Assembly (NCBI GenBank): GCA_037143175.1
Contig: JBAWZF010000007.1
Coordinates: 1-64,000, forward strand
Source of the DNA: a bacterium
GTDB taxonomy: Bacteria > Verrucomicrobiota > Kiritimatiellia > CAIKKV01 > CAITUY01
Length of the DNA: 64,000 nucleotides
Reading direction: 5' to 3'
The notes under the pieces are model-generated. The model had not been told where the DNA came from. It saw nothing but the letters and a program-made list of their open reading frames with translations, and did not search any database. Each line of letters begins with the position of its first letter. The stretch's first letter is position 1. Below, piece by piece: positions 4,957-46,237 of this stretch. The position numbers were made by a program, and so were the translations under genes.

Positions 4957-6081
4957 TCAGATGGTCTTGCGGAGGCGCCAGGCGGCCAGCAGGTTGAAGA
5001 GGAGGCCGAGGATTAGCAGGCCTGCCAGGTGCGGAAGTACATCCATGAACGAGGCGTCCTTAAGGATGATTTGGCGCAAGGCCGCGACGAAGTAGCGCGG
5101 GATGATGAGAAGGGTGATGCCCTGAATGGGTAGGGGCATGTTTTGGATGGGGAAGATAAATCCTGACAGGATGATGGCGGGGAGCATTGAGGTGAGGACG
5201 GCAACCTGAAACGCCATCTGCTGTGTCCGGGTAATGGTGGAGATCAGGACTCCCATACCCAGTGCGGCGAACAGAAACAGCAGTGTGGTGAGGCCAAGGA
5301 GTAGGAATGAGCCCTTGATCACAATGTCAAAGAGAACGTAGCCCAGAAAAAGCACGGTGATCATTGTCCCCACGCCAACCACGACATAAGGCAGGAGTTT
5401 GCCGAGGATCAGCTCCTGGGGACGGATAGGCGACACCATAATCTGTTCCATGGTCTGGCGCTCTTTTTCACGGACGATTGACACTGAAGTGGCGACGACC
5501 CCTGATAGCATGAGCAGCAGCCCGATCAATCCCGGAATGAGAAATTTGGCGCTTTGGAGTTCCGGGTTGAACCAGATGCGCGGTTCCAGTGTGATGAGCG
5601 GAAGAGCCAAGGGCGTGGCCGAGTGTTGCAGTGCTTTCAATCGCACTTTTCTGCTCATCCGGTCGGCAAGAGCCTCAAGATAACCGATGGTGGTGGAGGC
5701 GGTATTGGCATCGCTGGCATCTACCAGTGCTTGTACAGGGGCTGCTTCACCGCGGGCGATGGCTTTGGCATAGCCGCGAGGAATGATCAGCACGGCGCGA
5801 ACGCGGCCGCGGTCCAGCCATTCATTTGCTTCCGCCGGACGGCTCAGGGTGGCGACTTTGTCGAAATAAGGGTTTTGGAAAAGGCTGTCCTGAAAAGCCC
5901 GGCTTTCCGGCGTGCGGTCTTCATCCAGCAGGGCGATGCGGATGTGTTTGACGTCGAAGGAAAGCGCATAGCCATAGAGTGCGAGCAGCATGGCGGGCAC
6001 AAAGACCAGGAGTGCCAAAGACAGGGGATCCCGGCGGATCTGCCGGAATTCCTTTTTTAAAATGGCCCAGAATCGACGCAT
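4957..6081 (-). CDS. ABC-2 type transporter permease (YbhS/YbhR/YhhJ-like)
   Basis: A 374-residue permease with one N-terminal transmembrane helix (about 21-42), a large extracytoplasmic domain (about 45-175), then five or six membrane helices to the C-terminus. VSIVREKERQTMEQIMVSP is the conserved cytoplasmic loop of ABC-2 export permeases, and PIRPQELILGKLLPY follows it. With the ATPase just upstream in its reading direction it forms an ABC exporter, probably for drugs or other amphiphiles. E. coli ybhFSR has two permeases; here only one is present, so it may act as a homodimer. The 33-bp repeat copy 2 lies 25 bp past its stop. Confidence 0.9.
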   Translation of the reverse strand: MRRFWAILKKEFRQIRRDPLSLALLVFVPAMLLALYGYALSFDVKHIRIALLDEDRTPESRAFQDSLFQNPYFDKVATLSRPAEANEWLDRGRVRAVLIIPRGYAKAIARGEAAPVQALVDASDANTASTTIGYLEALADRMSRKVRLKALQHSATPLALPLITLEPRIWFNPELQSAKFLIPGLIGLLLMLSGVVATSVSIVREKERQTMEQIMVSPIRPQELILGKLLPYVVVGVGTMITVLFLGYVLFDIVIKGSFLLLGLTTLLFLFAALGMGVLISTITRTQQMAFQVAVLTSMLPAIILSGFIFPIQNMPLPIQGITLLIIPRYFVAALRQIILKDASFMDVLPHLAGLLILGLLFNLLAAWRLRKTI

Positions 6082-6090
6082 AGTTAGTGA

Positions 6091-6132
6091 GTGAGCAGTG
6101 AGCAGTAAGCAGTGGGCAGTGGGCAGTGAGGA
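6091..6132. repeat. Six tandem heptamers between ATPase and permease genes
   Basis: Six 7-bp units in a row: GTGAGCA twice, GTAAGCA, GTGGGCA twice, GTGAGGA. They fill almost the whole 70-bp gap between the two genes and displace any ordinary ribosome-binding site for the permease. The copy number could vary by slippage and so alter coupling between the genes. Confidence 0.8.
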
Positions 6133-6151
6133 GAATCGAGTTTGGATTGTT

Positions 6152-6907
6152 TCATTCTGAATCCTGTTTTGCCAGCTTGATGAAGGATTCTTCCAGGGTG
6201 GTCGCTCCGGTTTGGCGTTTGATCTCAGAGGGCGTGTCTAGAGCGATGAGTTTGCCGCTGCTGATGAATCCGAGGCGGCCGCAGAATTCGGCTTCATCCA
6301 TAAAGTGGGTGGTGATCAGAACGGTTGTACCCTGGGCGGAGAGTTTATGGATCAGGTCCCAGAAGAGGCGGCGGGAAACCGGGTCGACGCCACTGGTGGG
6401 TTCATCCAGAAACAGAATGGGCGGGTTATGTAGGATGGCGCACCCGAGAGCGAGCCGCTGTTGCAAGGCGCCGGACAAAACGCCGGTCAGGCGGTGTTCG
6501 AGCCCTTTCAGCCCCGCCATGGCGACCACGTTATCCATCTGGCGCTGAAGTTCAGTTCCTTCAAGGCCATAAACCCCGCCGAAGAAGCGGATATTTTCTT
6601 CAACGGTCAGGTCTTTATACAGACTGAACTTTTGAGACATATAGCCGATGTTTTCACGGATCTGATCAGGTTGACTGTTGATATCGAAGCCGTTGACCCG
6701 GGCGGTGCCGGAGGAGGAGGAAAGCAGGCCGCAGAGCATCCGGATGGTAGTGGACTTCCCTGCGCCATTGGGCCCCAGAAAGCCGAAGATCTCCCCGCGC
6801 TGGACGGTAAACGAGATCCTGTCAACGGCGGTGAACTGACCGAAGACCTTGGTCAGACTTTCAATTTCAATGGCATAGTCAGTTGTTTTCACTTCCACAC
6901 TCCCCAT
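6152..6907 (-). CDS. ABC transporter ATP-binding protein
   Basis: About 251 residues with Walker A GPNGAGKST, Q-loop YMSQKFSLY, Walker B ILFLDEPTSGVD and the H-loop in TTHFMDEAE, the DrrA/CcmA type of exporter ATPase. The signature is LSGALQQRLALG, where the second glycine of LSGGQ is alanine; exchange at this ATP-contacting site is uncommon but exists. The frame extends to an ATG at 6925, but the extra residues (MIRMIR) come from an intergenic GATCAGAATG-type repeat, so I prefer 6907. It is 70 bp upstream of the permease in the same direction. It is now separated from hlyD and tolC by plus-strand genes. Confidence 0.85.
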   Translation of the reverse strand: MGSVEVKTTDYAIEIESLTKVFGQFTAVDRISFTVQRGEIFGFLGPNGAGKSTTIRMLCGLLSSSSGTARVNGFDINSQPDQIRENIGYMSQKFSLYKDLTVEENIRFFGGVYGLEGTELQRQMDNVVAMAGLKGLEHRLTGVLSGALQQRLALGCAILHNPPILFLDEPTSGVDPVSRRLFWDLIHKLSAQGTTVLITTHFMDEAEFCGRLGFISSGKLIALDTPSEIKRQTGATTLEESFIKLAKQDSE

Positions 6908-17165: not shown

Positions 17166-18212
<1,047 letters not shown>

Positions 18213-18301
18213 TCTTCTCTCGAATAGTCGCCTCTTCTCGTGCAATGGGTTTTAATTTGAACACACTCCGAAGGGAGTGATGGGATGAGGGGCTTTTTGA
18301 C

Positions 18302-19138
18302 GTGAGGGATCGTACATTTGTCTTAGGAGTGGTGCTGGCGACCTTTTTTCTGGTTCTCCTGAACCTGCCGTCGTCGGTGTCATCTTCGTTGCGAGACTTC
18401 TTTCGGGGAGGCATGGCCACCTATCAGGGTGGGGTTACCCGCCTGCTATCACGTGTTCACAAGACTTCCGCCGCTGTTGGTAATATCGGTGACATCATTC
18501 AGGAGCGTGACCGACTGGACAAGGAGGTTACCGTGCTCAGGACTCAACTCCGGGGGGTGGAGGGGGTTTTGCGCGAAAACAATGAATTACGTGAATTGAT
18601 GGGCTTTAAAAAACGACTGAGCGTTAAGACGGTGGCGTGTGCGGTGATTGCCCGTGATGATGGATATGGGTGGTGGCAGACCATGCGCCTTGATAAGGGA
18701 CGGGACGAGGGGGTGGCGGCGGATATGCCCGTGATGACGCTGGAGGGCCTGGTGGGACGTGTGATTGAGGTGGGGGCACACACCTGCGATGTCCTGTTGA
18801 TTTCAGACCGGGCATTCAAGGTGTCGGTTCGTTTTGAGCAGGAAGGTTCGTTCGGGATACTTCAGGGGGGCGGGATTTCGTTGCGTGGTGACCACAGTTT
18901 CGGGGTGCTTTGTAATCCCCTTCCATCCGAGGTGGATTATGTGAGGAAAGATTTGAAAATCAAACCAGGCGAATGGGTTGTGACGTCGGGCTTTGGCGGG
19001 GTATTTCCAGCAGGGCTTGTGGTAGGGCGTGTGGTCAGTATGAGTATGGATGAAACGGGGCTTTATCAGGTTGCTGAAGTGGCGCCAGCTGCCGATATGG
19101 CCCGGCTTCAACATGTATTAGTGGTGACGGAACCGTGA
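18302..19138 (+). CDS. mreC: Rod-shape-determining protein MreC
   Basis: 278 residues with a GTG start. An N-terminal membrane helix (about 5-24) is followed by a coiled coil (about 55-100) and the two beta-barrel domains of MreC, with VMTLEGLVGRVIEVG and VVTSGFGGVFPAGLVVG as the landmark glycine-rich strands. MreC is a bitopic periplasmic scaffold that connects MreB to PBP2 and RodA. The 89-bp gap after mreB has no obvious terminator. The next gene starts 10 bp on. Confidence 0.92.
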   Translation: MRDRTFVLGVVLATFFLVLLNLPSSVSSSLRDFFRGGMATYQGGVTRLLSRVHKTSAAVGNIGDIIQERDRLDKEVTVLRTQLRGVEGVLRENNELRELMGFKKRLSVKTVACAVIARDDGYGWWQTMRLDKGRDEGVAADMPVMTLEGLVGRVIEVGAHTCDVLLISDRAFKVSVRFEQEGSFGILQGGGISLRGDHSFGVLCNPLPSEVDYVRKDLKIKPGEWVVTSGFGGVFPAGLVVGRVVSMSMDETGLYQVAEVAPAADMARLQHVLVVTEP

Positions 19139-19148
19139 GATCATTCAA

Positions 19149-19655
19149 ATGACAGCCGCAATCATGATTTTTTTATTGCTGGGGGGGGGGCTTCTGCAAA
19201 GCCTTATGCCCGCGTCAGCGGTACTGGGGCTTGCCAAACCGCCGTTTTTGATGGCCGTGTCGCTTTATTATGCTTTGGCTCATCCGCGGGGGACTGCAGT
19301 GCTGGCGGCCATTCTGGCCGGGGTTATTCAGGACTCGATGAGCCTTTTGCCCCTGGGGTATTCGGCGCTTTGTTTTGTGATATTCGGGGTGATATTGGCG
19401 GAGACACGCGAGAAGTTGTTCGGAGATAGTTTGTTTACGGTGGCCATATTGGGCGCCAGTTTGGGTGCTTTGACCACCTTGGGATTGTTTCTGATGTTGA
19501 GCCTTAACTCTCTGGCGGACTCCATCCCATTCTGGTGGGTGGCACTCAAGATGGGGGGCACGGCATTACTGGGTCTTGGTATTGCTCCGTTGGTGTGGTG
19601 GGTGGCGGCTACGCTTGAACGCCACGTGGGGTTAACGTATGTCGGTGAGAGATAA
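19149..19655 (+). CDS. mreD: Rod-shape-determining protein MreD
   Basis: 168 residues, almost entirely hydrophobic, with about five membrane helices. Sequence conservation in MreD is low; the assignment rests on size, topology, the QDSMSLLPLGYSALCFVIF segment and position between mreC and mrdA. It is an inner-membrane partner of MreC. The mrdA frame overlaps its last codons, or starts one base after its stop if the ATG at 19657 is used. Confidence 0.88.
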   Translation: MTAAIMIFLLLGGGLLQSLMPASAVLGLAKPPFLMAVSLYYALAHPRGTAVLAAILAGVIQDSMSLLPLGYSALCFVIFGVILAETREKLFGDSLFTVAILGASLGALTTLGLFLMLSLNSLADSIPFWWVALKMGGTALLGLGIAPLVWWVAATLERHVGLTYVGER

Positions 19656-19656
19656 T

Positions 19657-21483
19657 ATGGCAGCAGGTGAAACCATTCTTATGGAATTGAAGCGCATCCG
19701 GCTAGTGCTGCTGGTCATGCTGGGCCTGTTGTTTCTGCTGGCTACATTGCTGTTTGATATCCAGGTTTCACGGAGGCCGGAGTTTGAAGCCAGTTTACAT
19801 AAACAAAGTTTGCGGCGGATCCGTTTGCCTGCACCGAGGGGGCGGATATTTGACCGGAATCAGGTGTGTCTGGCCGATAACCAGCCTTGTTACTGCCTGG
19901 CTTTCAATTTGGAAGATCTTCGTCAGCCCGGACGGTGGAAGAATACAGTGGCGGAGGTGCAGCGCCGGGTCGGGGAGCTCAAGGGACTGATGGGGCGAAA
20001 AGCCATCATTGACGAAGCAGATATTTGGAGCCATATCCAGCGCCGTCTCCCGTTACCGCTGGTGGTTTGGCGGAGTCTGGATCCTGCGGCGCTGGCGCGA
20101 CTTTCAGAGTCTTCGGTGAATATGGCGGGGGTCGAGATTTATGTGGAGCCCAATCGCGTTTATCCCAATGGGGAATTGGCGGCTCATCTTCTGGGGTATG
20201 TGGGAAAGACGGACTTCTCCGGGGCGGAGATGGCTGGGTTTCAGTATTATCTTCCGGAGATGGACGGAAAAATGGGGTTGGAGCGCCAGTTTAATAAACA
20301 TGTCATTGGCGAGCCTGGGGAGCGCCTGGTGCGTATTGACGCATCGGGGCTCAAACGTGCAGAGCGAATCGACAAGGAGCCGATACCTGGTGCGAATGTG
20401 ATTCTGGCAATCGATAGCCGGATTCAAGCCTTAGCGGAATTAGCCATCCGAGATGTTCCTGGTGCTGTGGTGGTGTTGGATCCTACTAATGGGGATGTGC
20501 TTGCCCTGGCGAGTTCTCCGACGTTTAATCCAAATCAGTTGATGCCTGTTTTTCCGAAAGCGCTATGGGATCAGCTTAATTCTGACCCCTCCAAGCCCAT
20601 GTTGAATAAAGCGGTGGCTGAAGTGTACGCGCCCGGGAGTATCTTCAAGCCGGTGACCGCCTTGGCGGCCTTGAATATGGAGGCCGTTTCTGCCGCCCTG
20701 ACAGTGGATTGCCCCGGTTACTTTATGATTGGGAATAAAGCCATGAAATGCTGGAACCCCAATGGACATGGGGTGGTGGATTTACGGCGAGGGATTGAGC
20801 AATCGTGTAATACGTATTTTATTACCATCGGGCTGAAATGCGGGAATGATGCCATCTCTGATCTGGCGAAATTGTTTGGCCTGGGGGAGAAGACGGGTAT
20901 CGAACTTGATCGTGAGGCTGCCGGGGTTGTGCCTACGCCGGAGTGGAAACAGAAATACTGGCACGAGGACTGGCGGAATGGCGATACCTGTAATTTTTCA
21001 ATCGGACAGGGAGCATTAGCCGTGACCCCCTTGCAAATGGCGGTGGTGGCGGCCACGCTTGCCAATAGCGGGGATGTTTTCCGTCCGCGTTTGGTACTGG
21101 GCTTACAGGACACGGCCGGTCTCTCTATTACAAATTATCCTGCGACGTTGGTACGGCATTTGCCGCTCGATCCGGCGGCGATGAGGGCGGTACGAAACGG
21201 AATGCACGATGTTATCATGGCTCCCACCGGAACCGGGAAGCGGGCCGCCATCCCCGGAATTGAAATGGCGGGGAAGACGGGCACAGCGGAGTATGGAGAG
21301 AAAGAAGACCGGAAGAAGCATGGGTGGATGATCCTGTTTGCCCCTTATGACAAGCCGCGTTATGCCGTTGCCATGGTGGTGGATGATGCCGTCTCCGGGG
21401 GATTCACCGTAGGACCACGACTCCATGACCTCATGATGGGGATTTTCAAGGTGTCTGAAGGTCGGCGGGAGGTGGATGGGTGA
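19657..21483 (+). CDS. mrdA: Penicillin-binding protein 2, elongation transpeptidase
   Basis: About 608 residues from the ATG at 19657 (GGTGAGAG upstream); the frame also allows an ATG at 19639. One N-terminal membrane helix is followed by the dimerisation/pedestal domain with RGRIFDRN-like PRGRIFDRN. The transpeptidase motifs are SIFK (Ser at about 328), SCN, and KTGTAEYG (about 540). PBP2 crosslinks peptidoglycan during elongation together with RodA, whose gene overlaps its stop codon. Length is normal for class B enzymes. Confidence 0.95.
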   Translation: MAAGETILMELKRIRLVLLVMLGLLFLLATLLFDIQVSRRPEFEASLHKQSLRRIRLPAPRGRIFDRNQVCLADNQPCYCLAFNLEDLRQPGRWKNTVAEVQRRVGELKGLMGRKAIIDEADIWSHIQRRLPLPLVVWRSLDPAALARLSESSVNMAGVEIYVEPNRVYPNGELAAHLLGYVGKTDFSGAEMAGFQYYLPEMDGKMGLERQFNKHVIGEPGERLVRIDASGLKRAERIDKEPIPGANVILAIDSRIQALAELAIRDVPGAVVVLDPTNGDVLALASSPTFNPNQLMPVFPKALWDQLNSDPSKPMLNKAVAEVYAPGSIFKPVTALAALNMEAVSAALTVDCPGYFMIGNKAMKCWNPNGHGVVDLRRGIEQSCNTYFITIGLKCGNDAISDLAKLFGLGEKTGIELDREAAGVVPTPEWKQKYWHEDWRNGDTCNFSIGQGALAVTPLQMAVVAATLANSGDVFRPRLVLGLQDTAGLSITNYPATLVRHLPLDPAAMRAVRNGMHDVIMAPTGTGKRAAIPGIEMAGKTGTAEYGEKEDRKKHGWMILFAPYDKPRYAVAMVVDDAVSGGFTVGPRLHDLMMGIFKVSEGRREVDG

Positions 21484-22658
21484 GGGAATTCCTTCAACAG
21501 TTTCATCTGCTGCGTCGCATGAACTGGATCATGCTCCTGATGATTATCGGTTTGATGGCCGTGGGCGTTTGCTTCATCTACAGCGCGACGTCAATGCGGG
21601 AGGATTCAACCGTGGATTTGTACGTCAAACAGATTAAATGGGCGCTTGCGGGCATGGTTTGTTATCTCGGGGTAACGCTTTTCGACTACCGGCGGTTGCG
21701 TGACGTGTCTTGGATGTTTTATATCGTGGCCGTGATCTTGCTGGTGGCGGTGTTGTTTTTTGGAACGCGTATCTACGGCGCCAAGCGCTGGTTGATGTTT
21801 ATGGGGGTGGGTGTGCAGCCATCGGAAATTGGCAAACTCGCCGTGATTACCCTGAGTGCCTGCCTGTTGAGCCCTGCGGCAGAGAAGTTTGACCGCTTGC
21901 CGTCCATGTGGCGGTTGTTCCTGCTGGCAGCAATTCCCATGGTGCTGGTGATGAAAGAACCGGATCTGGGAAGCGCACTTGTGTATCTGCCTGTGGTGGT
22001 GGCAATGTTGTTTGTGGCGGGGGCCCGCATCAAGCCTCTGGTACTACTGGGGGGGGGTGGAGTGGCGGCTGTGATGCTCGTGCTTGCGGCGGTAGCGCTG
22101 CCGGAGCAGATGGGAATGACGCCTGAGCATCAGGAAAAATTTTTTCATGCCATCCGGTTGAGCGAATATCAGCGAGACCGGATTGAGGTGTTTTTGCAGC
22201 CTGGAAAAGATCCGATGGGCACGGGTTGGAATAAGCGGCAATCCGAAATAGCTGTGGGTTCAGGGGGGCTTACGGGTAAAGGGTACTTGGGCGGAACGCA
22301 GAATATTCTGGGTTTCCTGCCGCGTACGGTGGCTCCGACGGATTTCATTTTTTCGGTTATTACGGAGGAATTGGGTTTTTTGGGAGCTTTAGGCGTGTTG
22401 ACGATGTATGGTGGGCTGGTGGTGTGCGGTTTATATGCTGCCATGATGGCGCGCGATAAAATGGGACGGGTGTTGTGTGTGGGTATTGTAATGATGGTAT
22501 TCACGCATGCTTTTGTAAATATGGCAATGACCATTGGGGTGTTGCCAGTGGTGGGGATCCCTCTGCCGCTGGTCAGCTACGGTGGGACATTTATGGTAAT
22601 TACTCTGTTTGCTTTAGGTTTGATTCAAAGTGTGTATGTGCGACGGCCGGGATTGTGA
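21480..22658 (+). CDS. rodA: SEDS-family peptidoglycan glycosyltransferase RodA
   Basis: 392 residues with about ten membrane helices; GTG start overlapping the mrdA stop (GTGA). IKWALAGMVCYL, the conserved GVGVQPSEIGKLA loop, VMKEPDLGSALVYLP and GIPLPLVSYGG are SEDS-family markers. The Asp in KEPDLG corresponds to the residue needed for glycan polymerisation in RodA. It polymerises lipid II with PBP2 as partner. TDFIFSVITEELGFLG confirms the RodA/FtsW group; neighbourhood decides for RodA. Confidence 0.95.
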   Translation: MREFLQQFHLLRRMNWIMLLMIIGLMAVGVCFIYSATSMREDSTVDLYVKQIKWALAGMVCYLGVTLFDYRRLRDVSWMFYIVAVILLVAVLFFGTRIYGAKRWLMFMGVGVQPSEIGKLAVITLSACLLSPAAEKFDRLPSMWRLFLLAAIPMVLVMKEPDLGSALVYLPVVVAMLFVAGARIKPLVLLGGGGVAAVMLVLAAVALPEQMGMTPEHQEKFFHAIRLSEYQRDRIEVFLQPGKDPMGTGWNKRQSEIAVGSGGLTGKGYLGGTQNILGFLPRTVAPTDFIFSVITEELGFLGALGVLTMYGGLVVCGLYAAMMARDKMGRVLCVGIVMMVFTHAFVNMAMTIGVLPVVGIPLPLVSYGGTFMVITLFALGLIQSVYVRRPGL

Positions 22659-38242: not shown

Positions 38243-40378
38243 ATGGAAACTGTATTGGAACAGAATAAACAAAGTGGAGCGGCAGGGGAGTCCCGTCAGC
38301 GTGAAGCTGCGGATCGCCTCAAGCCGTTATCTGCTGTTCGCAATATCGGAGTCATTGCCCACATTGACGCAGGCAAGACTACGACCAGCGAACGTATTCT
38401 GTTTTATGCAGGACGTGTGCATCGTATGGGAGAGGTGCATGACGGAACTGCGGTTATGGACTGGATGCCGCAGGAAAAAGAACGTGGCATCACCATAACC
38501 AGCGCGGCGACCATGTGTTTTTGGCGAGATCATCAGATTAATCTCATAGACACCCCGGGGCATGTGGACTTTACCGTTGAAGTTGAGCGATCGTTGAGGG
38601 TGCTTGATGGTGCTGTTGTTGTATTCTGTGGTGTAGGTGGCGTTCAGCCGCAGTCTGAAACGGTTTGGCACCAGGCGGATCGGTATCATGTACCCCGGAT
38701 TGCTTTTGTCAATAAAATGGATCGGGTCGGGGCTAATTTTGGCGCCGTAGTTGAACAGATTCGAACGCGGCTTGGGGCATTGCCGGTACCGATTCAAATT
38801 CCCTGGGGCAGTGAGGAGAATTTTGCGGGCATTGTTGATCTGGTCACGATGCAGGCGATCTCTTTTGATGAGACCACCTTCGGATCCACTCTGAAATATC
38901 TACCCATTCCCAGCGAAATAGCCGTTGATGCCGAGCGTGCGCGGGCTAACATGATTGAAGTGTTGGCCGAGCATGACGAGCAGGTGCTTGAGGCCTATCT
39001 TGAGTGTCCGGATGTGTCTTCTGAGATTCTCAAGGCGGGGTTGCGTCGTGCCACCCTGGCTCAGAAAATTACGCCGGTTTTATGTGGTTCATCGCTGCGC
39101 AATAAAGGGGTTCAGAATTTACTTGATGCGGTTGTCGAGTTTCTCCCTTCGCCGCTGGATGTCCCGCCGATTCAGGGGGAGCATCCCAAAACCAAGGAAT
39201 TGGTGACGCGTGAGGCCGATGATTCGGCACCTCAAAGTGCATTAGTTTTTAAATTAATGAGTGATCCCTATATGGGGCGGATGGCTTTTGTTCGCGTCTA
39301 TTCGGGGCAGATCAAGCAGGGCCAGAATGTTTTTAACCCTCGGACGAAGAAACGTGAGCGGGTGATGAAGCTGGTTTTCTTGCATGCCGATGACCGTAAG
39401 GATGTGGATGTCATTCATGCTGGTGAAATTGGTGCGATTATCGGACTGAAGACGGTGACGACAGGGGATACACTTTGTGCTGAGAACATGCCTGTTGAGC
39501 TTGAGCGTATTCGTTTCCCGGAGCCGGTTATATCAATGGCTATTGAGCCAAAGTCCCAGGCCGACCGGGATAAATTAATTGAAGCTTTAAGCGCGCTTTC
39601 AGCCGAAGATCCTACTTGTGTAGTTTCGAAAGATGCGGATTCCGGTCAAACCCTGTTGAGTGGAATGGGTGAGTTGCATCTTGAAATTTTGAAAGACCGT
39701 ATGTTTCGTGAATTTAAAGTCCAGGCGAATGCCGGTCGTCCAATGGTTTCATATCGGGAAACCATAACCGCCAGGGGACATGGGACATGTCAGTTTGATC
39801 GTGAGATCGGGGGCCAGCGGCAATTTGGAGAAGTAGTTCTTGATGTCGAACCTGCGGAACGGGGTTCGGGCGTCGAGGTGAAATTTGAGGTTCCTCAGAA
39901 TCGCATTCCTTCAGCCTTCCGGGCCAGTGTTGAAGAAGGAATTCGTGATGGGTTGACAACAGGCGTCCTTGCCAACTATTCGTTGGTGGATGTAAAGGTG
40001 CGAGTGGTGGGCGGAGATTTTCGCGATCAGGAATCCACGGAGATGGCATTCAGGACTGCGGGAGTTATGGCATTGCGGGATGCGGTTAAGGGCGCAAAAC
40101 CAGCAATTCTTGAGCCCATCATGTCTCTGGAGATTATACTTCCAGCAGAGCATCTGGGTGATGTGCTGAACGATGTGAGCGCCAGGCGCGGCCATGTTCA
40201 GAATATGGTTGGGAAAGAAACTGTGCAGGTAATCCATGCGCGGGTTCCGTTGGCGGAACTTTTTGGTTACTCTACTGCTATCCGGTCATTAACCCGGGGG
40301 CGTGCGAGTTACACTATGGAGCCGGCCTGTTTTGATGTGGTGCCGGAGGCGATACAAAAGCAACTTCTGGAACGGTGA
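38243..40378 (+). CDS. fusA: Elongation factor G
   Basis: 711 residues. G1 AHIDAGKTT, switch [12 protein letters not shown] (normal, unlike tuf), G3 [10 protein letters not shown]4 NKMDR and the domain IV/V parts ([23 protein letters not shown]-like [10 protein letters not shown]) are complete. The N-terminus has about 30 extra residues before the GTPase core ([17 protein letters not shown]), longer than usual but without a known function. EF-G drives translocation and ribosome recycling. Confidence 0.97.
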
Positions 40379-40382
40379 GTGA

Positions 40383-40694
40383 ATGATGGAAAAGCAACGA
40401 ATACGCATACGTTTGAAAGCCTACGACTATCGGGTACTGGATCAGTCAGTGTCTGATATTGTAGAGACGGCAAAAAGGACGGGAGCCCGGGTCGTTGGAC
40501 CGATTCCCATGCCCACGCGCATTGAAAGTTATAGTGTCAACCGAAGTGTTCATGTCGATAAAAAATCGATGGAACAATTTGAAGTTCGCACGCATAAACG
40601 GTTGTTGGACATTGTGGAGCCGACGGCAAGAACGGTGGATGAGCTGAAGAAGCTCAACATGCCGGCCGGCGTAGATATAACGATCAAGATTTAA
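40383..40694 (+). CDS. rpsJ: Small ribosomal subunit protein uS10
   Basis: 103 residues; ATG codons at 40383 and 40386 both possible. [31 protein letters not shown] and [11 protein letters not shown] are standard. S10 is also the NusB partner NusE in rRNA antitermination. It starts four bases after fusA, so the S10 operon is joined to the str operon with no tuf copy between them. Confidence 0.97.
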
Positions 40695-40704
40695 GCAGGT
40701 AGCC

Positions 40705-41352
40705 ATGCAAGGGATACTCGGAAAAAAAATTGGAATGACGAGAGTTTTTGGTGACGAAGGTCAGCAAACTCCCGTTACAGTAATTGAGGTGGGCCCATGT
40801 GTGGTCGTTCAGCGAAAGACAAAGGGCTGCGACGGCTATGATGCGCTCAAGCTTGGGTATGATGATGTGAAAGCATCGCGTGCGAATAAACCCCATAACG
40901 GACAGTTTACGGCTGCAAAGGTTACGCCTAAGCGTTTCTTACGCGAGTTTCCCGTGACTTCCAGTGATGAAACCAAGGTGGGTGATACCATCACGGCTTC
41001 AATTTTGGAAGGCGCCTTGTTTGTCGATGTCATTGGAACGACAAAAGGCCGTGGCTTTCAGGGCGTTGTGCGTCGGCATGGGATGGCTGGCGGTCCGATG
41101 ACCCATGGTGGTCATTCTAAGCGTCGCGTTGGGTCCATTGGTTGTCGTTCATATCCCGGCCGTGTTCATAAGGGTAAGCGCATGCCTGGCCATATGGGCA
41201 ATGTGCGGGTAACAACGCAAAACTTAAAAGTTGTTCAGCTCCGTGCCGGAGAGAATTTGATCCTTGTGAAAGGGGCGATTCCCGGGCCGGTTGGGGCGAT
41301 GGTTGAAGTACGAATAGCCTTGAAGAAGACGAAGGCAGGGCAGGTGAAATGA
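40705..41352 (+). CDS. rplC: Large ribosomal subunit protein uL3
   Basis: 215 residues. GILGKKIGMTRVFGDEG at the start and GRGFQGVVRRHGMAGGPMTHG then YPGRVHKGKRMPGHMGN are diagnostic; the latter loop reaches the peptidyl-transferase centre. The stop overlaps the rplD start (ATGA, 41349-41352). Confidence 0.97.
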   Translation: MQGILGKKIGMTRVFGDEGQQTPVTVIEVGPCVVVQRKTKGCDGYDALKLGYDDVKASRANKPHNGQFTAAKVTPKRFLREFPVTSSDETKVGDTITASILEGALFVDVIGTTKGRGFQGVVRRHGMAGGPMTHGGHSKRRVGSIGCRSYPGRVHKGKRMPGHMGNVRVTTQNLKVVQLRAGENLILVKGAIPGPVGAMVEVRIALKKTKAGQVK

Positions 41353-41990
41353 GCAAGCTTTCAGTCTATGATATGAAGGGATCCTCGTCGACAAAAGTTG
41401 AATTTCCAGATGAACTGTTGACGACCAAAGGGCAGCAGGCCGTTCATGATGTAGTCATCGCCTATCAGGCTGGCATACGCGCCGGTACGGCTGACACTTT
41501 AGGAAAAGGGGCTGTAGCCGGGAGTAACAAGAAGCCGTGGAAGCAGAAGGGGACAGGGCGTGCCCGTGCGGGTTACCGTCAGTCGCCCGTGTGGCGCGGT
41601 GGTGGTGTGGCCCACGGTCCGCATCCGCGAAGTTATGCCAAAAAAGTTCCACACAAAGTGGCGCAGTTGGCCTTCCGTCGAGCCTTCAGTGACCTGGTGC
41701 GCGAGGATCGTATTCGGGTATTGGATCAGCTTTCATTTGCAGAGCCCAAAACGAAAACTGCGGCTGCACTGCTTAAGGCGCTTGGATTGAATAAGGGTGC
41801 ACTGGTGGTGGTTGACACGCTTGACAAAAATTTGTTGTGCGCCCTTCGCAATATAACCAATGTTGAAGTTACCACCGCAAAAGATGTTAGTACGTTTCAG
41901 TTGATTCGTTATCCTGTAACGGTGTTAACGCGTGCCGGTATGGATGGGGTGCGTTCGCGGCTTGAGGGTGAAGCAGGGAGGAAATCATGA
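41349..41990 (+). CDS. rplD: Large ribosomal subunit protein uL4
   Basis: 213 residues. The exit-tunnel loop KPWKQKGTGRARAGYRQSP with WRGGGVAHGP is conserved. L4 lines the tunnel constriction; in gammaproteobacteria it also represses the S10 operon, but no leader like that is visible here. Overlaps both neighbours by four bases. Confidence 0.96.
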   Translation: MSKLSVYDMKGSSSTKVEFPDELLTTKGQQAVHDVVIAYQAGIRAGTADTLGKGAVAGSNKKPWKQKGTGRARAGYRQSPVWRGGGVAHGPHPRSYAKKVPHKVAQLAFRRAFSDLVREDRIRVLDQLSFAEPKTKTAAALLKALGLNKGALVVVDTLDKNLLCALRNITNVEVTTAKDVSTFQLIRYPVTVLTRAGMDGVRSRLEGEAGRKS

Positions 41991-42268
41991 AAAATGCGCT
42001 TTCAGCGGTGCGAGGCCTGCATATCACCGAAAAGGGGACATTGCTAGCCGCTCAGAATAAGTATCTTTTTAAAGTGGATCCGGCAGCCAATAAGCTGGAA
42101 ATTAAAATGGCTGTAGAGGACTTTTTTAAGGTCAAAGTGGTCAAGGTCAACACCATGAACTATGATGGCAAGAAACGCCGGGAGCGGACGCTTCATTATG
42201 GCAAAAAAGCCGATTGGAAGCGTGCCGTAGTAACCTTGAAGGATGGCGATAAGATCGATTTGGAATAG
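41987..42268 (+). CDS. rplW: Large ribosomal subunit protein uL23
   Basis: 93 residues. ITEKGTLLAAQNKYLFKVDP, VEDFFKVKVVKVNTMNYDGK and RRERTLHYGKKADWKRAVVTL match bacterial L23, which sits at the tunnel exit and docks trigger factor and SRP. Starts inside the rplD stop. Confidence 0.96.
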   Translation: MKNALSAVRGLHITEKGTLLAAQNKYLFKVDPAANKLEIKMAVEDFFKVKVVKVNTMNYDGKKRRERTLHYGKKADWKRAVVTLKDGDKIDLE

Positions 42269-42280
42269 GAAGCACACGAC

Positions 42281-43105
42281 ATGGCGCTTAAAAGTTATAA
42301 ACCTACGACGCCGAGCTTGCGTAATACCAAGCTCTCCACGTTTGACGAAATTACAAAGAGTAAGCCCGAACGTTCGTTGACTCGGGCTCAAAAATCTCAG
42401 GCGGGACGTAATTCTGCCGGCCGGGTAACTATCCGGCACCGCGGTGGTGGACATAAGCGGAAATTCAGAATTATTGATTTCAAACGGAACAAGATTGGGA
42501 TCACGGCTAAGGTTCAGGCGATTGAATATGATCCGAATCGTTCTGCCAATATAGCTTTGTTGGCCTACCGCGATGGCGAAAAGCGTTATATCCTGGCTCC
42601 CTTGGGACTGGAAGTTGGCGCGATTGTCATGGCGGGTCCAGATGTGGAACCTGTGACGGGCAACATGATGCCGCTCTCGAAGATTCCGCTTGGCCTGTCG
42701 ATACATAATATCGAACTTACTGTCGGAGGCGGGGCGCAATTAGTGCGGAGTGCAGGCCAGACGGCTCAGTTGATGGCCCGTGAGGGTGGATATGCCAGCG
42801 TGAAGCTGCCGTCCGGTGAAATCCGGCTGATTAATGTCAATTGCATGGCGACAATTGGGCAGGTGGGTAATATTGATCATAATGGCGTTAAGCTTGGCAA
42901 GGCTGGGCGCAAGCGCTGGAAGGGGATTCGTCCGACCGTTCGTGGTGTGGCGATGAACCCGGTGGATCACCCGATGGGTGGTGGTGAAGGTCGTACGTCT
43001 GGCGGTGGTCACCCAGTGACGCCGTGGGGTCAGCTCACGAAGGGCAAGAAGACTCGGGCGAAACGTAAGGCGTCGAAAAAATTTATTCTTAGTCGGAGAA
43101 AGTAA
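42281..43105 (+). CDS. rplB: Large ribosomal subunit protein uL2
   Basis: 274 residues. [20 protein letters not shown] near the N-terminus and [19 protein letters not shown] near the C-terminus, the latter holding the histidine placed close to the peptidyl-transferase centre. Length and order are standard; rpsS begins three bases after its stop. Confidence 0.97.
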
Positions 43106-43108
43106 ACC

Positions 43109-43390
43109 ATGGGCCGTTCACTTAAAAAAGGGCCGTTTGTTGATGAAAAGCTGCTGGAGCGTGTGGAGAAGATGAACCGTGCAGGCGAGAAGCGCGTTGT
43201 CAAGACGTGGTCGCGCCGCTCCATGATTGCGCCCGAATTCGTCGGGCACACGCTGGCTGTTCATAACGGGAAATTGCATATGCCGGTCTATATTACGGAG
43301 TATATGGTCGGTCATCGGTTGGGTGAATTTGCGCCCACACGAATTTTCCGGAAACACGGAACGCATACGGATAAAACTGTGGCGAAGTAA
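43109..43390 (+). CDS. rpsS: Small ribosomal subunit protein uS19
   Basis: 93 residues. [39 protein letters not shown] and [19 protein letters not shown] are standard S19. It should be followed by rplV, but here an unrelated exported-protein gene intervenes four bases after its stop. Confidence 0.97.
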
Positions 43391-43394
43391 CTGA

Positions 43395-43901
43395 ATGAGA
43401 ACGCTCAGCCTTAAATGGCGGCTTGGCTCCTTTAGTGTTGGCTTTTTTATATGGATTGTGGTTAATTCACCGGCTTCGTCAGAAGATGCCGGAAAAGCTG
43501 AACTGAATGAGGGTATCAAAAGCCAGGTACGGAATCTGAGTGAAGCATTGGTTGCTGCAAAGATTGAGATTGATTATTTAAAAGCGAGGCTTGAAACCCG
43601 AGCTTGTGAGGCGGAGGATGCGACCGGTGTGTTGCCGGGCGGATCTGCGACGTTGAGGGAAAAGAACTATCTGATTTTGGATGTTAACAAAGAGTTGGGC
43701 ATGGTAATCCTCAACGGAGGGCATCGAGACGGGGTAAAGCCTGGGTTGATGTTTGATGTGATAAATGGGGATCATTCCGTGACGACGGTTCGAGTTGTGG
43801 ATTCGCGTTGGGCCATCGCTGGTGCGGTGATTCAAAACATGAGCCGGAAGTTACCCAAAGTTCAGGATCGGGCAGTTTTGGCAGCCGGATCGAAGAACTA
43901 G
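43395..43901 (+). CDS. Predicted exported coiled-coil protein embedded in the S10 operon
   Basis: 168 residues, not a ribosomal protein. The N-terminus (KWRLGSFSVGFFIWIVVNS then PASSED) is a signal peptide or membrane anchor with cleavage near residue 29. Residues about 36-68 (KSQVRNLSEALVAAKIEIDY and on) form a coiled coil. The C-terminal part (about 88-160) contains ELGMVILNGGHRDGVKPGLM and RVVDSRWAIAGAVI, resembling the small beta domain at the FlgT C-terminus found in several envelope proteins of PVC bacteria. It lies four bases after rpsS and ten before rplV, so it must be co-transcribed and is probably highly expressed. Function unknown; a periplasmic structural or envelope role is my guess. 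Confidence 0.8.
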   Translation: MRTLSLKWRLGSFSVGFFIWIVVNSPASSEDAGKAELNEGIKSQVRNLSEALVAAKIEIDYLKARLETRACEAEDATGVLPGGSATLREKNYLILDVNKELGMVILNGGHRDGVKPGLMFDVINGDHSVTTVRVVDSRWAIAGAVIQNMSRKLPKVQDRAVLAAGSKN

Positions 43902-43911
43902 GAGCGAGTTA

Positions 43912-44247
43912 ATGGAAGTTAAAGCAATAACCAAATATGTTCGGTTGTCACCGCGGAAAGCGCGTGATATGGCTCGGGCGATCCAAGGTATGCCTGTGGC
44001 TGAAGCGATTAAAAAGGTTGAATTCAGTGAGCGTAAGGCGGCGAAGCAGTTGGAAAAGACCATTCGTTCGGCTGTAGCAAATGCTGAAAACAATGCCAAG
44101 CTATTGGCTGACGATCTGCGGGTTAAAGAGGCCACGATTGGTGAAGGGCCTGCGATGAAACGCTTTTGGGCGAGATCGCGCGGCATGGTGAGCCGAATTC
44201 GGAAACGGACTAGCCATATTACGATCGTGTTGTCGGATGGAAAGTGA
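43912..44247 (+). CDS. rplV: Large ribosomal subunit protein uL22
   Basis: 111 residues. YVRLSPRKARDMARAIQGM, the NAENNAKLLADDL helix and RGMVSRIRKRTSHITIVLSD (beta hairpin that lines the exit tunnel) identify L22. Normal length; displaced from rpsS by the inserted gene. A 36-bp gap leads to rpsC. Confidence 0.96.
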   Translation: MEVKAITKYVRLSPRKARDMARAIQGMPVAEAIKKVEFSERKAAKQLEKTIRSAVANAENNAKLLADDLRVKEATIGEGPAMKRFWARSRGMVSRIRKRTSHITIVLSDGK

Positions 44248-44283
44248 CCGGTAAATACCGGATGACGTGAAAGGAGCATCGTT

Positions 44284-44952
44284 TTGGGACAGAAAATCAA
44301 TCCGATTGGATTAAGGATTGCGGTCAGCAAGGCCTGGAAGTCGCGCTGGTTTGCGGACAAGCGCACATTTGGCACCCTGCTGAATGAGGATCTGACGATC
44401 CGTGATCTCGTAAAGAAACGTCTTGATGCAGCGGCGGTTGCCGAGATCATTATCGAGCGCTATGCAAATCGCGTTCGGGTAACTATTTGTACCGCCAGAC
44501 CTGGCATTGTTATTGGCCGTAAGGGGCAGGATCTTGATCGTATTCGCGAAGAAATCGCGAAGTTGACCGGCAAGGAAATCTATCTTGAGATCCGCGAGAT
44601 CCGGAGTCCTGACACCAATGCCCAGTTAGTCGCCGAGAGTGTGGCGCTTCAAATGGAGCGTCGCGTTTCATTCCGGCGAGCTATGAAGCGCGCCATCAAA
44701 ATGGCGATGGAGTTGGGTGTTAAAGGCATCCGTATCAAAGTGTCTGGCCGTCTGGGTGGCGCTGAACTTTCGCGCGTTGAATGGTATAAAGAGGGAACGA
44801 TTCCCCTGCATACCTTGCGTGCAAATATTGATTACGGGTTTGCCGAGGCGCAGACTACCGCTGGTAAGATTGGCGTGAAAACATGGATTTGCAAAGAAAA
44901 AGACGAGCCGGAGAAGGCAGTGAGGGGACGTTCTAATGCCGCTTATGCCTAA
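44284..44952 (+). CDS. rpsC: Small ribosomal subunit protein uS3
   Basis: 222 residues with a TTG start (GGAGC upstream). [20 protein letters not shown] begins the protein; [18 protein letters not shown] is the KH RNA-binding motif and [20 protein letters not shown] the C-terminal domain core. S3 is part of the mRNA entry helicase. The last codons overlap rplP by 17 bases. Confidence 0.96.
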
Positions 44953-45349
44953 ACGCGTTAAGCACCGTATGGTGCAACGTGGATCTCGTAAGGGAAACGC
45001 TCAGTCAGGAAATTCTCTCGCATTTGGTGAGTATGGGTTGAAAGCACTTGATCGGGCTTGGGTTAAAGCCAACCAGATTGAGGCGTGCCGCGTCGCCATG
45101 AATCGCAATATGAAGCGACGTGGTAAAGTGTGGTTGCGCATTTTCCCAGACAAGCCTGTGAGTAAAAAGCCTCTTGAAACCCGGCAGGGCAAGGGGAAAG
45201 GCGATCCGGAATTCTGGGTTGCTGTCATTTTGCCTGGAACAATGATGTTTGAAGTGGACGGTGTTTCAGAGCAATTGGCTAAGGAATCGTTGCGTCTGGC
45301 GGCGGCGAAGTTGCCGATTCGGACAATGTTTGTTAAACGGCACCACTAA
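44936..45349 (+). CDS. rplP: Large ribosomal subunit protein uL16
   Basis: 137 residues. [17 protein letters not shown], the [20 protein letters not shown] segment and [19 protein letters not shown] are typical. L16 organises the A-site tRNA region. Overlaps the end of rpsC; a start at 44945 would shorten it by three residues. Confidence 0.96.
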
Positions 45350-45381
45350 TACGGGCCAAATAGGACAGGGGTGCGGACGAT

Positions 45382-45579
45382 ATGAAGGCCGCTAAACTGA
45401 GAGAAAATAACAAAGAAGAACTCGTGCAGCAATGCTCTGATATGGAGAAAGAATTGCGCACGTTGAAGATTCGTAAATCGGCGAGCCAGATCGAGCAGCC
45501 GTCACGTATTACAAGCTTACGTCGGGATATTGCCCGGGCGCAGACGGTAATGAGTGAACGGCGTCGCCAGCAAGGTTGA
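45382..45579 (+). CDS. rpmC: Large ribosomal subunit protein uL29
   Basis: 65 residues, two helices. [20 protein letters not shown] and [20 protein letters not shown] then [17 protein letters not shown] fit L29, although the usual LFNLRFQ sequence is replaced by LRTLKIRK, a mild divergence. Position between rplP and rpsQ supports the call. Confidence 0.92.
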
Positions 45580-45860
45580 TGATTATGGTAGACATGGAAA
45601 CCAATCGAGCGCTTCGCAAACAACGCACTGGAATTGTTGTCAGTTCGGCGATGCAAAAGACCATTGTGGTGCGTGTGGAGCGGACGACTCGTCATCCCCT
45701 GTATGGGAAAGAGATGACGCAGGCTAAGAAGTATCATGCGCATGACGAAGAGAACGCAGCTAAAGTTGGCGATAAGGTGCGGATCGTTGAGACGCGGCCG
45801 TTGAGTAAGCTTAAGCGGTGGCGTCTCGTCGAAATTGTTGAAACAGCTAAACGCCAGTAA
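45576..45860 (+). CDS. rpsQ: Small ribosomal subunit protein uS17
   Basis: 94 residues from the ATG overlapping the rpmC stop (ATGA); an internal ATG at 45591 would match the usual family start. [20 protein letters not shown] and [20 protein letters not shown] are the OB-fold landmarks. S17 binds the 5' domain of 16S rRNA. Confidence 0.95.
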
Positions 45861-45874
45861 CTGGGTGAACGACC

Positions 45875-46237
45875 ATGATTCAAGAAGAAACAAACCTTGA
45901 TGTTGCAGACAATACCGGAGCGCGGCGGGTGCGTTGCTTTCGTATTATCGGGCAGCGCAAGATGTATGCTCACATCGGTGATTTGATCCGGGTTGCGGTG
46001 CAAGAAGCCCAGCCGACGGGATTGGTAAAAAAAGGGCAGGTTTGTCGGGCAATTATTGTCCGGACATGCCAGCCGATTCGCCGTCCTGATGGATCGGCTC
46101 TTCGGTTTGACAACAACGCGGTGGTGCTTGTGGATGAAAAGCTTAACCCGATCGGGACTCGTATTTTTGGCCCGGTGGCGCGTGAGCTTCGTGAGAAGTA
46201 CATGAAAATTGTCTCACTCGCACCTGAGGTGTTGTAA
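45875..46237 (+). CDS. rplN: Large ribosomal subunit protein uL14
   Basis: 120 residues. [20 protein letters not shown], the [20 protein letters not shown] loop and [20 protein letters not shown] identify L14, part of the subunit interface and the landing site of RsfS. Start of the spc-type gene order. Confidence 0.97.

Follow-up and report, generated by a model that had tools for sequence, protein, structure and literature searches.

Non-ribosomal genes (secY, adk, map, infA and rpoA) are carried in the S10-spc-alpha cluster of ribosomal protein genes, and their products have cytosolic or translocon functions. The gene analysed here resembles them as a non-ribosomal gene in a ribosomal protein operon, but it differs from them in the export signal of its product and in its place within the S10 operon, immediately in front of rplV. 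At the level of the protein, two described systems are closest. The C-terminal domain of FlgT (PF16538), with the LPHT ring of Vibrio flagella, has the fold nearest to that of the C-terminal beta domain, although the protein has neither the N-terminal nor the middle domain of FlgT. MreC (PF04085) shares the succession of membrane segment, coiled coil and periplasmic-side beta domain, with a weak structural match. Unlike MreC, the protein has just one short beta domain, short forms of its family have no coiled coil, and its gene is linked to rplV and not to mreB/mreD, the mre operon owning its own mreC.

Database searches were carried out for the protein encoded in the window, i.e. the whole stretch of 64,000 nucleotides that was analysed. 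Pfam, searched with the window protein and four lineage alignments, returned coiled-coil noise and weak FlgT_C matches only, and NCBIfam, searched with the window protein and two Verrucomicrobiia-like alignments, had no covering family. The PDB gave nothing significant by sequence, and an Rfam search of positions 40000-46000 gave no match. No paper on the gene was found in the literature searched, most subscription journals lying outside the search. The lack of a Pfam or NCBIfam family and of a paper agreed with the original prediction, according to which no system of this kind had been described.

Arrangement of the locus and parts of the protein

The features of the locus are summarized in Table 1. 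The reading frame starts with ATG and ends with TAG, giving 168 aa, and is separated by 4 nt from the rpsS stop codon and by 10 nt from rplV; the close packing first noted for this gene was exact in its coordinates. In the E. coli control, rpsS and rplV were adjacent with 14 nt between them. When the rpsS-rplV gap was shuffled 2000 times, none of the shuffles reached 168 open codons. An assembly artefact or a chance reading frame was rejected on the basis of this test, of homologues at the same place and of purifying selection on the protein.

Table 1. Features of the rpsS-rplV region in the window
Feature	Position	Strand	Basis or remark
rpsS (uS19), upstream neighbour	43109..43390	+	
Undescribed gene, 168 aa exported-type protein (start ATG at 43395, stop TAG at 43899-43901)	43395..43901	+	family precedes rplV across Verrucomicrobiota
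N-terminal export signal, residues 1-29 (basic n-region, hydrophobic core, SPA-S type site)	43395..43481	+	sequence reading, hydropathy, dN/dS
Long helix of coiled-coil type, residues 31-76	43485..43622	+	AlphaFold2 model, alignments
Six-strand beta domain, residues 92-162	43668..43880	+	alignments, AlphaFold2, Foldseek, dN/dS
TAGGAG, stop codon of the gene overlapping the likely rplV Shine-Dalgarno sequence	43899..43904	+	sequence
rplV (uL22), downstream gene, the constant partner throughout the phylum	43912..44247	+	

The other members of the genus and family had the same overlap of stop codon and Shine-Dalgarno sequence. A simple scan of the + strand from 43000 to 44400 revealed neither a promoter nor a terminator. 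These two observations make a shared transcript very likely, and from the sequence we infer that the gene is co-transcribed with rpsS and rplV. The codon usage value of the gene (0.694) was below that of all its ribosomal neighbours and resembled those of mreC and secY, so its protein output may be lower than theirs.

The protein had been described as a signal-peptide, coiled-coil protein with a small beta domain, and the hydropathy survey and the AlphaFold2 model were in agreement with this description. An N-terminal hydrophobic segment above threshold was found in 86 of the 93 proteins encoded at the site, against none of 15 ribosomal and fusA genes. A lipobox-like motif was seen in nine of the 93, and some N-termini look uncleaved. 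The window protein is predicted to have a cleaved signal peptide, and some relatives an uncleaved anchor or a lipobox. The AlphaFold2 pLDDT was about 90-96 for the helix core and the beta domain, and a model of a long form from an independent lineage showed the identical order of strands in the beta domain. Within this domain G109, G117, R138 and D158-R159 are near-invariant. The helix differs in length among lineages.

The nearest structures to the beta domain in Foldseek were the FlgT/LPHT ring and then MreC, both periplasmic. The E values were 7e-4 and 1.3e-4 for 8z5n and 5.7e-3 and 8.6e-4 for 3w1e, with modest TM-scores, and F1-ATPase beta barrels scored like the other matches; the fold thus does not fix the function. 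In a search of viral structures, the best named match was a phage protein labelled as a FlgT C-terminal domain.

Distribution, linkage to rplV and descent

A homologue directly upstream of rplV was present in 87 of 141 Verrucomicrobiota genomes, a fraction that is not a frequency, as the genomes were picked to cover lineages. These homologues fell in all three main branches of a ribosomal protein tree (uL22, uS3 and uL16; FastTree; 142 rows with the E. coli outgroup). Nearer to the window, all five other genomes of the genus that were searched and all three other genera of the family had the homologue between rpsS and rplV, without an internal stop. The gene is thus neither peculiar to this assembly, with homologues across genus, family and phylum, nor broken by stops in its genus and family, the two outcomes against which the original prediction had been set.

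The class of the window was surveyed in 146 genomes, together with further loci. Families with the gene between rpsS and rplV are f1-f6, f12, f14, f16, f18, f26, f29, f37 and f42; it also occurs there in single members of f10 and f24, and in two contigs titled Methylacidiphilum sp. Phi (L133, L134). In the wider phylum a long form of 235-320 aa occupies the site in f48, f49, f52, f57, f58 and f66. A short form of 108-130 aa, consisting of signal and beta domain without the helix, occupies it in f46, part of f51, f61, f64, f67 and f69 (loci L165, L178, L181, L187, L190, L193, L196, L198, L201, L207 and L220). Many of the examined genomes had no such gene upstream of rplV; having been lost in them, it is not essential everywhere. 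At several loci where the gene is missing, the spacing between rpsS and rplV is 80-260 nt against the usual 10-30 nt (L069, L081, L090, L092 and L124 in f10; L173, L188, L219, L223 and L224 in f51; L071, L077, L089 and L215). These gaps are possibly decayed remnants of the gene. Genomes of f24 without a copy linked to rplV have a homologue of 165-217 aa elsewhere (L280 2521-3174, L281 2501-2998, L282 2104-2634), near murJ/ruvB/aat-like or gltX-like genes, which may be either a relocation or a paralogue.

In many genomes the S10 operon is split after rpsS, with unrelated DNA following. In 22 of the 30 genomes examined for this (21 of 29 split genomes, and G027) the gene still stands directly before rplV, as the first gene of the second half-operon, at a distance ranging from a short overlap to 124 nt. 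The operon is broken precisely at the rpsS-rplV junction in one large clade, which is probably Lentisphaeria-like, in f24 and in G027 (split loci L225-L240, L243, L245, L247-L251, L086, L095, L238, L242 and L244), and the split requires only three changes on the ribosomal tree. The gene was kept with rplV in two of these three inferred events. As it precedes rplV even after rpsS has been separated, the conserved linkage is that of the gene with rplV and not that of the rpsS-rplV pair. The position between rpsS and rplV was borne out for this genome, where it is packed and conserved, whereas the constant linkage is to rplV alone. In G027 (L016 5830-6397) the signal/lipobox-like start and the helix-beta part lie in different frames with an A run between them, by frameshift, sequencing error or recoding.

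Comparison of alignments by hhalign pointed to the homology of all lineage versions. The E values were 9e-26 for class against Verrucomicrobiia-like long, 3e-21 for long against split-operon, 1e-18 for class against split-operon, 1e-13 for long against short and 1.4e-12 for class against short; by this sequence evidence the four versions are homologous. A gene tree of the C-terminal 100 residues kept the four lineage groups with the fewest changes possible, 3. Presence and absence of the gene required at most 18 changes on the ribosomal tree against about 44 when shuffled, although this tree alone cannot separate gain from loss. The gene is probably ancestral to Verrucomicrobiota and has been lost repeatedly; the simplest account would be vertical inheritance of a gene that already stood here in the ancestor. 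Calling the gene "inserted" between rpsS and rplV had the polarity wrong, since it occupies this position throughout Verrucomicrobiota. The data did not support an origin by recent insertion, or by horizontal gain, within a single lineage, as the groups of the gene tree match the lineages and every main branch of the ribosomal tree has the gene.

Pairwise dN/dS among six genomes of the genus was 0.17-0.51 for the whole gene. For the four genus pairs split by region, it was 0.16-0.22 in the beta domain, indicating purifying selection, 0.24-0.66 in the helix (intermediate) and 0.37-0.84 in the signal, which evolves fastest. The values for rpsS and rplV were 0-0.05. This pattern of substitution is one that fits a functional, fast-evolving exported protein.

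Proposed role and alternative explanations

The reading that we prefer, with a probability of roughly 40%, is that of an ancient envelope-anchored adaptor or scaffold, co-transcribed with ribosomal genes and present in an amount that follows ribosome synthesis. The small exported protein would be held at the membrane or in the periplasm and its helix would pair or trimerise. The C-terminal small beta barrel of FlgT-C/MreC type would bind an envelope partner, rendering the protein a periplasmic adaptor or scaffold, and co-transcription with rplV and the other genes of the S10 cluster would let its amount track ribosome synthesis. Here we infer export, oligomerisation, partner binding and growth-rate coupling. 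In favour of this reading we count the conserved place before rplV, the homology of the lineage forms and the lineage-wise gene tree, the export-type N-termini, the beta topology shared by two models with periplasmic nearest relatives, the selection on the beta domain and the short gaps with no promoter or terminator in the scan. Counted against it are the modest Foldseek scores, the many genomes that lost the gene and the low codon usage value, and the oligomeric-scaffold part would not be universal, since the short form in several families has no helix. An envelope adaptor or scaffold is favoured because a flagellar role is unlikely and most carriers have a separate MreC.

A flagellar basal-body protein of the FlgT kind would account for the best structure matches, which are FlgT and the LPHT ring, and for the weak PF16538 matches in 9 of 22 and 5 of 16 relatives, the best of which (E 0.0089) stays below the cut-off. 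However, the gene for the FlgI P-ring is missing in 38 of 43 carriers, the genome of the window among them, and such a role is accordingly highly improbable. Another explanation is a divergent MreC-like component of the elongasome, working with the MreBCD-PBP2-RodA system encoded about 20 kb upstream. The shared order of parts, the mre operon within the same window, the place of MreC among the structure matches and the best PDB profile match, MreC 9dvb (E 0.021), speak for it. Against it, a canonical mreC is encoded separately at 18302-19138, inside the mreB-mreC-mrdA-rodA run, and no MreC match was obtained for G149 and G160, two carriers from a single genus. The window protein gave no PF04085 match, and none of 22 relatives passed the curated cut-off, one of them giving E 0.046. 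By hhalign, the MreC of the same phylum was matched with E 8e-5 over 79 columns and prob 61 (6.9e-5 and 0.0023 for the others of three lineage alignments), a weak and partial likeness compared with 1e-12 to 1e-26 within the family. A divergent MreC-like component is therefore unlikely, and identity as MreC itself was rejected on the canonical mreC, the weak and partial profile similarity and the linkage to rplV. The elongasome genes lie on the same strand as the S10 cluster and about 20 kb upstream of it; the window holds mreB, mreC, mrdA (PBP2) and rodA at 17175-22658, then rng, tuf, rpoBC, rpsL-rpsG-fusA and the S10 cluster.

Two further explanations were considered. The gene could be a passenger, an ordinary envelope gene that chanced to be captured by a highly expressed operon of the phylum ancestor and was kept since its loss would disturb rplV expression. 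Such an origin would suit the repeated losses (up to 18 changes on the tree), some of which leave gaps of 80-260 nt, and the f24 homologue found at another place where the copy linked to rplV is missing. It is harder to reconcile with a linkage to rplV that outlived two of three operon splits, and with vertical inheritance over the phylum under purifying selection on the protein, and we regard it as doubtful. Alternatively, the gene could be a secretion-monitoring leader of the SecM type, in which the nascent chain during its export, or the gene's own translation, controls how rplV is translated, so that envelope export capacity sets ribosomal protein output. The uL22 protein lines the exit tunnel of the ribosome, and this was counted for such a leader together with the signal peptide, the constant place directly before rplV, kept after the operon split, and the overlap of its stop codon with the rplV Shine-Dalgarno sequence in genus and family. 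Yet a C-terminal arrest motif is not conserved, the tails after GDR varying between lineages; what is conserved is a folded beta domain, with selection acting on the protein; and in several split genomes the gene lies as far as 78-124 nt from rplV. These points make a leader of the SecM type quite improbable.

A broader proposal is that of a mechanism specific to the phylum, with the rplV transcript as the link through which an envelope protein is made or exported. Envelope growth and ribosome synthesis would then regulate one another, through shared dosage or through translation of rplV that depends on secretion. We consider this unlikely and speculative. Every cell needs to match envelope growth and ribosome synthesis; an exported-type gene kept before rplV across a phylum makes a link between ribosome and cell surface directly testable. 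Experiments on essentiality, localisation and coupling are already feasible, since cultured and genetically tractable Verrucomicrobiota exist. For Verrucomicrobium spinosum a transposon library and targeted mutagenesis have been published, and its essential genome is reported to include 100 essential proteins of unknown function (PMC12283558).

Proteins of about 280-300 aa with a membrane segment, a long coiled coil and a beta domain were also found in the class of the window. They have the same domain order as the protein described here and are homologous to it with E about 1e-6 to 1e-16, but they are longer and are encoded away from ribosomal genes; they are likewise undescribed. In several families of the class, proteins of about 284 aa with a membrane segment, a very long coiled coil and a related beta domain are encoded as tandem pairs, for example at 5610-6464 and 6484-7335 of L035.
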